A DNA stretch of 64,000 bases from Candidatus Planktophila lacus (GTDB taxonomy: Bacteria > Actinomycetota > Actinomycetes > Nanopelagicales > Nanopelagicaceae): positions 496,001 through 560,000 of the forward strand of contig NZ_CP016780.1 of assembly GCF_002288325.1 (NCBI RefSeq), in the 5' to 3' direction. The position numbers and the translations under genes were made by a program. Below the pieces are notes generated by a model, which worked only from the letters and a program-made list of their open reading frames with translations, was not told where the DNA came from and ran no database searches. Of the stretch, positions 43,360-51,299 are shown piece after piece; positions within the stretch are counted from its first letter, which is position 1; each line of letters begins with the position of its first letter.

Positions 43360-43375
43360 GCTGTCCAAAATCGGG

Positions 43376-43452
43376 TGGGGAGGCGTGGGGAGGCGGTGGG
43401 GGATAGGTGGCGGAGGGTGGTTGAAAAAGGAGGAAAGTGGAGTAAAGTGGGG
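43376..43452 (+). promoter_or_regulatory. MraZ-binding repeats upstream of mraZ
   Basis: TGGGG-type repeats recur with about one helical turn between them: TGGGG at 43376 and 43386, TGGGGG at 43397 and TGGCGG at 43408. A second pair (TGGAG at 43438, TGGGGG at 43448) forms an AAAGTGG direct repeat 10 bp apart. MraZ is known to bind TGGGN repeats spaced by five bases in front of its own operon, so this is a likely autoregulatory operator. The region is strongly purine/G-rich on the plus strand. Confidence 0.75.
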
Positions 43453-43506
43453 GATTAAGCGGGAATTGCCGCTTACAAGAGTCCTCGGGGAAGGGGGTTC
43501 GCGAAG

Positions 43507-43938
43507 ATGTTTCTCGGTACCCACGAGCCACGCCTTGATGAAAAGGGCCGCTTAATCCTTCCCGCAAAATTCCGCGAAGAACTCTCTGCAGGTTTAGTAA
43601 TCACAAAAGGACAAGAACGCTGTCTCTACGTTTTTCCATCTGCTGAATTTGCAACGATCACCGAAACACTGCGCCAGGCACCAGTTACATCAAAGAATGC
43701 GCGCGATTACATGCGCGTGATGTTTGCCGGCGCACACGATGAAATTCCTGATCGCCAAGGTCGCGTAACTATTCCTGCAGGACTTCGTACATATGCAGGA
43801 CTTGAAAAAGAGTGCGTTGTTATCGGCGCAAATACGCGCGTTGAAATTTGGGATAACGCAGCTTGGAACTCTTATTTATCAGATCGTGAAAAGGGCTTTG
43901 CCGAGGTTTCAGAGGAGATTTTTCCGGGTCTCTTCTGA
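43507..43938 (+). CDS. mraZ: Transcriptional regulator MraZ
   Basis: MraZ is a ring-forming DNA-binding protein that controls the division and cell-wall cluster, usually repressing it. The 143-residue protein has two SpoVT/AbrB-like halves, each with the DxxGR motif: [17 protein letters not shown] (near residues 9-25) and [19 protein letters not shown] (near 81-99). It begins [14 protein letters not shown] as in other actinobacteria. It is separated from rsmH by 210 bp that contain an RNA structure. Confidence 0.96.
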
Positions 43939-43995
43939 GAAAAATTAAAACAACTTAATAAAACAACTAAATAGCAAGTAAAAAACTAAATAGCG

Positions 43996-44096
43996 CTCTC
44001 ATCTGTGGCCACCGCCGACCTAAAGCCGGCAGCGACACCCCTTCCCCGGTGTCGCTTTCGTTAGATCCGTCGGCCGGCGGTGACCAGAGATGAGAG
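43996..44096 (+). ncRNA. Candidate mraW RNA motif (cis-regulatory 5' leader)
   Basis: The region folds into a clear multi-branched element. The outer stem pairs CTCTCATCT (43996-44004) with AGATGAGAG (44088-44096). Inside it GGCCACCGCCGAC pairs with the GTCGGCCGGCGGTGACC strand. An inner hairpin pairs GCGACACC with GGTGTCGC. Position, phylum and architecture match the mraW RNA motif described upstream of mraW/rsmH in actinobacteria. Its ligand or binding protein is not known. The structure ends about 52 bp before the rsmH ATG. Confidence 0.75.
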
Positions 44097-44148
44097 ATGA
44101 AGTTAAAGAAGTAATTGCGAGATAACTAGTTAAGAAAAGGGGGAGTGT

Positions 44149-45105
44149 ATGAACGATGCAAGTACGCAACATATTTCAGTAATGCTTGATCGTTGCATTG
44201 AACTACTCTCTCCAACAACTCTGCTAAGCCAATCACCAGTTATCGTTGATTGCACACTTGGTTTGGGCGGTCACACCGAAGCCCTCCTTGAAAAGTTTCC
44301 AACCCTTACCGTTATCGGCATCGATCGCGATCCAATTGCTCTAGAGCGCGCATCTGCACGCCTTGCTCGCTTCGGAGATCGCTTCAAACCAAACCACGCA
44401 ATCTTCGATCGCATCGGTGAAGTTGTTGCTAGCCATGGGTATAAAAGCGTTAATGGAATCCTCTTTGATCTTGGCGTTTCATCCATTCAATTAGATGAGG
44501 TAGATCGCGGATTTTCATATTCACAAGATGCACCACTTGATATGCGCATGGATCGTACTCGTGGCATTACTGCATCAGAGATCGTAAATACCTATGCTCC
44601 AGGTGCACTGGTAAAGATTCTGCGCACTTACGGTGAAGAAAAGTTTGCAACACGTATCGTTGAAAATATTGTTAAGGCCCGTGCGAAAGCACCTCTTAAC
44701 TCAACCCAAGAACTTGCCACATTAGTTAAAGAGAGCATTCCTGCTGCAACCCGTCGTACCGGTGGTAATCCAGCGAAACGCACCTTCCAGGCCCTGCGAA
44801 TTGAAGCCAATGACGAGCTCGGTGCAATCACGCGCGCGATACCCGTTGCCCTTGATCTCTTAATGGTTGGGGGACGCGTAGTCGTTCTCTCCTTCCAATC
44901 TTTAGAAGACCGCATCGTTAAAGAGATATTTGTTGAGCGTTCGACTTCAAAGACGCCACGCGATCTTCCAGTTGATCTCCCTGAATTTGCTGCGAAGTTT
45001 GCACTTGTTTCCAAATCAGGTGAAACACCTTCTGATCAAGAGTTAGCTAACAATCCGCGTTCGGCATCGGTTCGTTTACGTGCGATCGAAAGGTTGGCTG
45101 CTTAA
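44149..45105 (+). CDS. rsmH: 16S rRNA (cytosine1402-N4)-methyltransferase
   Basis: RsmH (MraW) methylates C1402 in the ribosomal P site using S-adenosylmethionine. The N-terminal HISVMLDRCIELL, SAM-binding DCTLGLGGHTEALLE and GIDRDPIAL, the FDLGVSSIQLDEVDRGFSY block and the C-terminal NPRSASVRLRAIERL are all present in 318 residues. A strong GGGGGA ribosome site precedes the ATG. It opens the contiguous block that runs to ftsQ. Confidence 0.96.
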   Translation: MNDASTQHISVMLDRCIELLSPTTLLSQSPVIVDCTLGLGGHTEALLEKFPTLTVIGIDRDPIALERASARLARFGDRFKPNHAIFDRIGEVVASHGYKSVNGILFDLGVSSIQLDEVDRGFSYSQDAPLDMRMDRTRGITASEIVNTYAPGALVKILRTYGEEKFATRIVENIVKARAKAPLNSTQELATLVKESIPAATRRTGGNPAKRTFQALRIEANDELGAITRAIPVALDLLMVGGRVVVLSFQSLEDRIVKEIFVERSTSKTPRDLPVDLPEFAAKFALVSKSGETPSDQELANNPRSASVRLRAIERLAA

Positions 45106-50240: not shown

Positions 50241-51299
50241 ATGAGAGAAATTCTGATCGCTGGTGCGATCGCCTTGTTCTTATCTCTCTTTGGAACGCCG
50301 GGTTTAATTCGCATACTTGCCCGCCGCGGTTATGGACAGATTATTCGAGATGATGGACCTTCTTCGCATCACACCAAGCGCGGAACGCCAACCATGGGCG
50401 GCATCATTATCATTTTCGCAACTGCAGTTGGTTATTTCATCGCCCACGCAATTTCGCGAAACACAGTTAGCACCTCAGCGCTCTTAGTTCTTGGTTTAAT
50501 GGCAGGTCTGGGATTTGTTGGATTCTTAGATGATTGGCTAAAAGTTTCTCGCCAGAAATCACTTGGCTTAAATGCCAAGCAGAAAATATTCGGGCAGATA
50601 GTAGTTGCTGCAACTTTTGCTTACTTAGGTATCAACTTTCCAGATCGTGATGGGCTAACGCCAATCTCACAGAATTTATCAACCGTTCGCGATACCTCAA
50701 TTACTTTAGGAACTACCTTGGTGATCATCTGGGTCGTCATAATGGTGACCGCTACCAGCAATGGTGTAAACCTCACCGACGGTTTAGATGGCTTAGCAAC
50801 CGGTGCTGCTGTGATGACATTTATCGCATTCATTTTGATTGGCGTTTGGGAATTTGGTCAAAGTTGCGCGGTATCACCTGGCGCTAACTGCTATCTAGTT
50901 CGAGACCCGTTAGATATTGCTGTTCTATCTGCAGCGCTAGCCGGGGCATGTGCCGGATTTCTTTGGTGGAACGCCTCGCCAGCAAAGATCTTCATGGGCG
51001 ATACCGGTTCGCTAGCACTGGGCGGCGCCCTTGCGGGAATCGCAACAACGCTGCGTATTGAGTTACTACTAATTCCACTAGGTGGCTTATTTGTAATCAT
51101 TAGCGCTTCAGTGATTCTGCAAGTTGCCTACTTTAAAATCTCAGGTGGAAAGCGAATCTTCAAGATGGCGCCACTGCAACATCACTTCGAATTAATGGGC
51201 TGGGGTGAGGTAACAATTGTGCTTCGCTTCTGGATCATCGCTGGCCTTTGCGTCGCAGCTGGCTTAGGGCTCTTCTACGCGCAATGGGTTACGGCATAA
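50241..51299 (+). CDS. mraY: Phospho-MurNAc-pentapeptide transferase MraY
   Basis: MraY transfers phospho-MurNAc-pentapeptide to undecaprenyl phosphate, forming lipid I at the inner face of the membrane. About ten membrane helices are visible in 352 residues. The catalytic segments [29 protein letters not shown] and [12 protein letters not shown] carry the conserved aspartates, and [13 protein letters not shown] lies near the C-terminus. Confidence 0.97.

Follow-up and report, generated by a model that had tools for sequence, protein, structure and literature searches.

The mraW RNA was listed among candidate RNAs by Weinberg et al. in 2010 (PMC2864571), its presence has been recorded in PMC4046766, and a paper of 2017 (PMC5640933) called its function unknown. 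In corynebacteria, two reports place the mapped mraW start of C. glutamicum (2,266,932) inside the motif, which extends from 2,267,021 to 2,266,916 (PMC3890552), and the motif of C. diphtheriae upstream of the mraW start (PMC5784534). These starts inside or below the motif keep alive the readings of the element as a processing site or as a promoter. According to a 2026 preprint (PMC13317604), ribosomes modified by MraW read structured leaders better in B. subtilis. That system likewise ties the level of RsmH/MraW to the translation of mRNAs with structured starts, although it belongs to another phylum and concerns other genes. A literature search, which covered few subscription papers, revealed neither a mechanism for the mraW RNA nor experimental support for the loop masking proposed below.

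Anti-Shine-Dalgarno sequences are found in the C-rich loops of some staphylococcal small RNAs, and translational pseudoknots are also among the known examples. The mraW loop would work like these loops and pseudoknotted leaders, in which a C-rich loop is likewise set against a ribosome site with a strength near that of the 16S pairing. Unlike them, it is located in a conserved cis element between genes, and two sites of the operon may share it; no common ancestry is claimed.

In the window, which is the whole stretch of 64,000 nucleotides that was analysed, an element of about 110 nt is located between the stop of mraZ (43938) and the start of rsmH (44149), as given by the ORF map of the window. 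The first of these ORFs was named mraZ from sequence motifs, and the second is taken to be rsmH from sequence motifs and from the known neighbour of the RNA family. The genes and the parts of the element are the following:

43507..43938, + strand: mraZ (ORF)
44149..45105, + strand: rsmH (mraW) (ORF; homologues found)
43989..44107, + strand: mraW RNA (RF01746), full length (Rfam model, 39.4 bits, E 1.6e-6)
43993-44099, + strand: mraW RNA, extent given by the family model, which was built from same-genus sequences
43996..44004, + strand: outer stem, 5' arm, partner of 44088-44096 (predicted fold, covariation)
44088..44096, + strand: outer stem, 3' arm (predicted fold, covariation)
44006..44020, + strand: middle stem, 5' arm, including the C.A mismatch position of GGCC/GACC (predicted fold, alignment, covariation)
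44072..44086, + strand: middle stem, 3' arm (predicted fold, alignment, covariation)
44031..44039, + strand: inner stem, 5' arm, 9 perfect pairs (predicted fold)
44048..44056, + strand: inner stem, 3' arm (predicted fold)
44040..44047, + strand: apical loop CCUUCCCC, 8 nt (predicted unpaired, p 1.0 in the copy of the window)
44041-44047, + strand: invariant loop core CUUCCCC (alignments within the genus and across families)

A preliminary description of this DNA had proposed a mraW RNA candidate in the mraZ-rsmH gap, with an outer stem of 9 bp, a long GC-rich middle stem and a perfect inner hairpin of 8 bp. The hairpin is real and its three-part fold was recovered: the outer stem consists of 9 perfect pairs, the GC-rich middle stem contains one C.A mismatch, and the inner stem is indeed perfect but comprises 9 pairs instead of 8. 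When folded alone, the segment 43990-44104 reached -61.4 kcal/mol, compared to -34.8 +/- 3.4 kcal/mol for shuffled sequences (z -7.75), and none of 200 shuffles was as stable. In the predicted folds of 58 of 59 family loci the loop CUUCCCC was unpaired with a probability of 0.97-1.0, the odd row (L179) being an artefact in which a second CUUCCCC outside the loop was scored.

The covariance-model search suggested in that description gave a match of RF01746 to the copy of the window from end to end (model positions 1-107 of 107, with the above score obtained under permissive settings), which was the sole match in the genome at E 0.001. The identity proposed earlier thus holds, although the score is lower than the gathering score of RF01746 (50 bits), a curator's annotation cut-off and not a biological feature. 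A search of the window with Rfam at the gathering threshold produced no match, so that this copy is missed by annotation at that threshold. The element, which occupies the junction of mraZ and rsmH in the division/cell-wall operon, is a true mraW RNA; by identity it is an ordinary member of a known, unexplained RNA family, and it is new by context. It shares with RF01746 the position upstream of rsmH, the hairpin plan, the CUUCCCC loop and the covarying stems, and it differs from the model in its score, in extra bases on the 3' side between the inner and middle stems, and in the complementarity of the loop to the ribosome sites of rsmH and, in some genera, of mraZ. The reverse complement of 43993-44099 (minus strand) also matched the family model, with 49 bits; the element is near-palindromic, and strand calls made from the score alone consequently need care.

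Matches to RF01746 were detected in 29 of 41 genomes (that of the window and 40 relatives), 5 of them above and 24 below the gathering score, with a stricter filter that loses even the copy of the window. Within the same class, 193 of 296 genomes and 82 of 105 genera contained matches, and a sample of 197 genomes of the phylum yielded 11, ten of them in the same class and one, weak, outside it. A family covariance model built from 15 same-genus sequences found the mraW RNA in 96 of the 101 genomes of the window's family, including all 70 good ones, and in 15 of 16 genera; among these 101 genomes, no match to it was obtained in G364, G372 and G381 (g111), G360 (g116) and G421 (g19). Where the mraZ start could be read (79 family loci), the loop was located between mraZ and rsmH. 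CTTCCCC occurred within 420 nt upstream in 63 of 80 named loci encoding RsmH relatives. Much of this family, which by inference represents the freshwater acI lineage (Nanopelagicales), is hidden from mraW annotation by the Rfam cut-off.

The compensatory changes in relatives that had been put forward as a check of the hairpin were found both within the family and across families. The 59 distinct rows of the family had 95.9% of their cells paired and two-sided changes in 21 of 31 pairs, and none of 500 shuffles reached any of the covariation measures, in an alignment fitted to the model and hence leaning towards it; antisense matches, L179, L180 and L203 were left out of this alignment, and L031, an opposite-strand match at the place of L002, was dropped from all counts. 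A second analysis was carried out with a MAFFT alignment of 16 rows (the window's locus and 15 loci from 15 other families), the structure being the RNAalifold consensus of the same alignment; 88.6% of cells pair, 21 of 26 pairs show two-sided changes and none of 500 shuffles was as good. These compensatory changes in the stems indicate that the hairpin is not due to chance. CUUCCCC was invariant in 15 same-genus rows and also in 16 rows from 16 families, the latter having been cut out around a CUUCCC. The expectation that a compact genome could help to define the core of the RNA was thus borne out, the family comparison having led to the invariant core and to the complementarity between loop and ribosome sites. 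Some stem positions are occupied by non-standard pairs. At 44009 with 44083 and at the equivalent positions of the family, in GGCC/GACC, C.A alternates with U-A, and one inner-stem pair is non-standard, often A.C, in 21 of 59 family rows; these positions could possibly correspond to protonated A.C pairs.

With a rough probability of 0.4, we infer that in the window's family the mraW RNA is a built-in anti-Shine-Dalgarno loop that masks the ribosome-binding site of rsmH and, in some genera, that of mraZ. The apical loop CUUCCCC would be exposed at the end of a long rod and would form 7 bp with the downstream GGGGRAG of rsmH, producing a pseudoknot that would compete with the 3' end of the 16S rRNA and lower the translation of rsmH. 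In genera with GGGGAAG in the mraZ leader, the window's included, the loop may instead pair with the mraZ site located about 550 nt upstream, and a single loop could in this way restrain one gene or the other and couple the amounts of MraZ and RsmH. Release of the loop might come from ribosomes that terminate on mraZ, from a protein or from a metabolite. A single transcript through mraZ and rsmH is assumed, because a scan of the gap between them, which covers one promoter type, revealed no promoter-like or terminator-like site. Speculatively, RsmH might also feed back on its own leader when this is masked, which would agree with the preprint on MraW-modified ribosomes. If the masking is true, the RNA would tune the start of the division/cell-wall operon in very small genomes, coupling RsmH and perhaps MraZ, and it would exemplify a fixed RNA loop that gains targets as ribosome sites evolve to match it. 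The lineage provides a cheap and concrete test case, with a 7-nt loop and a matching 7-nt ribosome site. The two candidate targets of the loop in the window are the following:

44139..44145, + strand: rsmH ribosome-binding site GGGGGAG (complement of the loop CUUCCCC, one pair being G.U)
43487..43497, + strand: mraZ leader 11-mer GGGGAAGGGGG, the only copy in the genome

The distance from the loop to the rsmH site is 91 nt in the window and about 80-150 nt across the family. GGGGRAG was present at rsmH in 76 of 83 fetched family loci, which were the best-scoring ones plus some chosen to cover genera and are not a random draw; 14 of 15 genera had it in most of their loci (the duplicates L140 and L143 were left out of the GGGGRAG, RAG and 16S-duplex counts). 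The exception is genus g111, represented by one locus (G355), which has the RNA, lacks the site and forms a long RsmH branch. In a rapidly built RsmH tree (61 rows), where the two g109 rows fell outside the family's clade, the trait requires six changes and is spread through the family. The rsmH leader of the window would pair with the loop at -11.5 kcal/mol and with the 16S rRNA, whose 3' end was verified, at -11.3 kcal/mol, and the genus-median rsmH leader ranked 7th among 386 sampled genes by pairing energy with the loop. In the predicted folds of 59 loci the rsmH site is partly paired elsewhere (median unpaired 0.27).

True covariation between loop and site cannot be shown, because the loop core never varies. 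The base located 5' of CUUCCCC showed no covariation with the rsmH site, with matches in 6 of 47 rows for C-G, 5 of 23 for A-U and 3 of 6 for U-A; against mraZ the covariation was weak (C-G 36/36, A-U 3/9). An extension of the loop pairing through this base was considered and was found to be unsupported for rsmH and weak for mraZ. Matches of 8-10 nt in genera g109, g110 and g112 are the best-looking cases of extension, and others break the pattern.

Outside the family the complementarity was nothing special. GGGGRAG occurred in only 1 of 75 rsmH leaders (75 loci from 36 families), in a set in which some rsmH starts are uncertain due to a small ORF between the RNA and rsmH. A less strict count, made on named records and covering 65 nt upstream of the matched start, gave 9 of 80, distributed as 3 of 5 records that look like acI (L290-L293 and L299, assigned by judgement) and 6 of 75 others. 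When 21 permutations of the loop were compared, the family rsmH and mraZ leaders averaged -11.12 kcal/mol with the true loop, which ranked 2nd in each case, whereas outside the family it ranked 14th for rsmH and 16th for mraZ, in sets of 104 and 98 leaders that hold many loci of one family (f4). In 73 outside loci, no tested part of the region that begins 300 bases before mraZ and extends 900 bases into rsmH was enriched for the complement of the loop. Pairing between loop and leaders as a general function of the mraW RNA is rejected on the basis of these permutations, site counts and enrichment scan. The loop has, or had, another role, since it is equally conserved in other Actinomycetes, where the leader complementarity is unremarkable, and the pairing with rsmH would be mainly a trait of the family, added to an older conserved loop. 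Two observations were made in the outside records. A small ORF, membrane-like by eye, seems to be located between the mraW RNA and rsmH in L004, L013, L019, L022 and L096, from several other families, so that a gene other than rsmH may come directly after the RNA. L299 (CAMCYA010000010.1), titled Bifidobacterium breve, contains an rsmH 71% identical to that of the window and has a loop of the window-family type; this bin looks mislabelled.

The wide conservation is best accounted for by a different reading, in which the hairpin is the site of an RNA-binding regulator that reads CUUCCCC and the GG(U/C)C/GACC stem, as in an autoregulatory leader bound for instance by RsmH, MraZ or a ribosome-assembly factor, with the ribosome-site complementarity being secondary. 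Families without special leader complementarity also conserve the loop and part of the middle stem, and in GG/CC two G-C pairs are constant in the 59 family rows, one of them also across the 16 families, although pairing alone would permit change. Nevertheless, no candidate protein was identified, and this reading leaves unaccounted for the RAG extension, which pairs with CUU, in the family rsmH leaders. A likeness to helix h44 of the 16S rRNA, the substrate of RsmH, was considered by eye; the bases involved show compensated change (from C-G to U-A in 3 of 15 rows), which disfavours mimicry of h44. As an explanation of the locus, a regulator site is considered somewhat unlikely.

The loop masking has also to be compared with the possibility that GGGGRAG is just a strong ribosome site in two genes, its complementarity to the loop being incidental, which would be compatible with a regulator site. 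Both the mraZ and the rsmH leaders are among the strongest for 16S pairing, as this explanation predicts, and no special complementarity was found outside the family. Because both leaders are near the top in this respect, the search was aimed at bases that 16S pairing can spare. In 63 of 72 leaders the final AG of the rsmH GGGGRAG, which the loop pairing needs, is not part of the modelled 16S duplex, so 16S pairing provides no explanation for it, and yet RAG after the G-run was found in 72 of 79 family rsmH leaders, compared to 7 of 65 background leaders (samples of six genera). Outside the family it appeared in 2 of 31 rsmH leaders, both from one genome fetched twice. The P-values of the RAG counts treat related genomes as independent, and for this reason the genus counts have been given. 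Background genes with strong sites pair best with loops of the CCCUCCU type and not with CUUCCCC: 70 such genes, which are crude ORFs with the start picked for best 16S pairing, averaged -6.94 kcal/mol with the loop, and 7 of them reached -11.3 kcal/mol or better. The same sites are not kept in other genes either, GGGGRAG being retained at mraY in 5 of 29 readable loci and at gcvP in 3 of 30 (the 30 best-matching family loci for each gene). Both genes carry GGGGRAG in the genome of the window, and the copy at mraY (50241-51299), GGGGGAG, is complementary to the loop. Within the window's family, therefore, the complementarity between rsmH and the loop goes beyond the 16S prediction and is kept across relatives, and incidental matching of strong sites is judged unlikely for rsmH and mraZ taken together.

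The match of the mraZ leader carries less weight in this respect. RAG after the G-run was found in 51 of 79 mraZ leaders, with the AG inside the 16S duplex in 47 of these 51, so that the mraZ match is inseparable from a strong ribosome site. In the window, the first 10 bases of GGGGAAGGGGG are the exact reverse complement of CCCCUUCCCC (44038-44047), whose first two C are part of the inner stem and would have to open in order to pair with the mraZ leader. Accordingly, GGGGAAGGGG (43487-43496) can match 8 bases within the loop, or 10 with the first two inner-stem pairs open, and the predicted energies are -16.1 kcal/mol for the 8-nt loop and -22.7 kcal/mol for ten pairs, as against -13.7 kcal/mol with the 16S rRNA. 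By pairing energy with the loop, this leader ranked joint first among the 386 sampled genes.

Of 61 same-genus genomes, 37 contained a single copy of the 11-mer GGGGAAGGGGG and 24, many of them incomplete, contained none; it was located in the mraZ leader in all 12 same-genus loci with a readable mraZ start, and a larger set contained a few variants. Only the 11-mer is unique, the 8-mer GGGGAAGG not being rare (13 copies in the genome, and present in all 101 family genomes). In the family, GGGAAG was found in 43 of 79 mraZ leaders and GGGGAGG, with one G.U, in 22 more, while 14 had neither. By genus, GGGAAG was present in all examined loci of g1, g18, g21, g114 and g109, in 1 of 3 of g110 and in 1 of 9 of g20. 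Outside the family, 22 of 75 loci had mraZ leaders with GGGGAGG or GGGGRAG. A hairpin presenting GGGGAAGGGG, as required for kissing loops, was suggested by a flank complementarity that beat all 2000 permutations in 36 rows, and after thinning to 22 rows 215 of 2000 permutations did as well.

A more elaborate form of the masking would make the loop, in several genera of the family, a toggle between two sites. It would mask at any one time only mraZ (in the genome of the window with 8 pairs, or with 10 on opening of two pairs of the inner stem) or only rsmH (with 7 pairs), so that the RNA would balance the cell-division regulator MraZ against the ribosome methyltransferase RsmH at translation; ribosome sites would have evolved to fit an older loop. 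This form is distinctly unlikely as a whole.

The hairpin could alternatively be a rod for processing or stabilisation, cut by RNase III or blocking exonucleases, which would separate the fates of the mraZ and rsmH mRNAs. A long covarying rod between two genes is what would be expected in this case, and RNase III reportedly cuts the mraZ mRNA of C. glutamicum; the cut is said to fall in the mraZ coding region, and not in the mraW element. The mraW 5' ends mapped within or below the motif in two corynebacteria also agree with processing, but such a role would require neither an invariant loop of 7 nt nor the GGGGRAG sites, and this explanation is quite improbable. An action on transcription, as an attenuator or as a promoter for rsmH, is most improbable despite the C. 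glutamicum start inside the motif and the position of the C. diphtheriae motif upstream of the mraW start, given that the gap contains no promoter-like or terminator-like sites of the kinds scanned (one promoter type), that no T-run follows the hairpin and that the compensatory changes favour RNA pairing over a DNA site.

Some minor features were observed upstream of mraZ, where a promoter-like site is located:

43421..43448, + strand: TTGAAA-16-TAAAGT, promoter-like by consensus match only

GTGG[AG] words are present at 43375, 43385, 43396, 43437 and 43447, the last pair spanning this site, and those of the region 43375-43451 resemble what we take to be MraZ boxes. In addition, the genus has a second small hairpin in its mraZ leaders (for example L001:969-1024 and L189:1046-1101), noticed by eye close to where the mraZ transcript probably begins, and its arms seem to covary (AAGCGG/CCGCTT, GAGCG/CGCTC and GGCCG/CGGCC).
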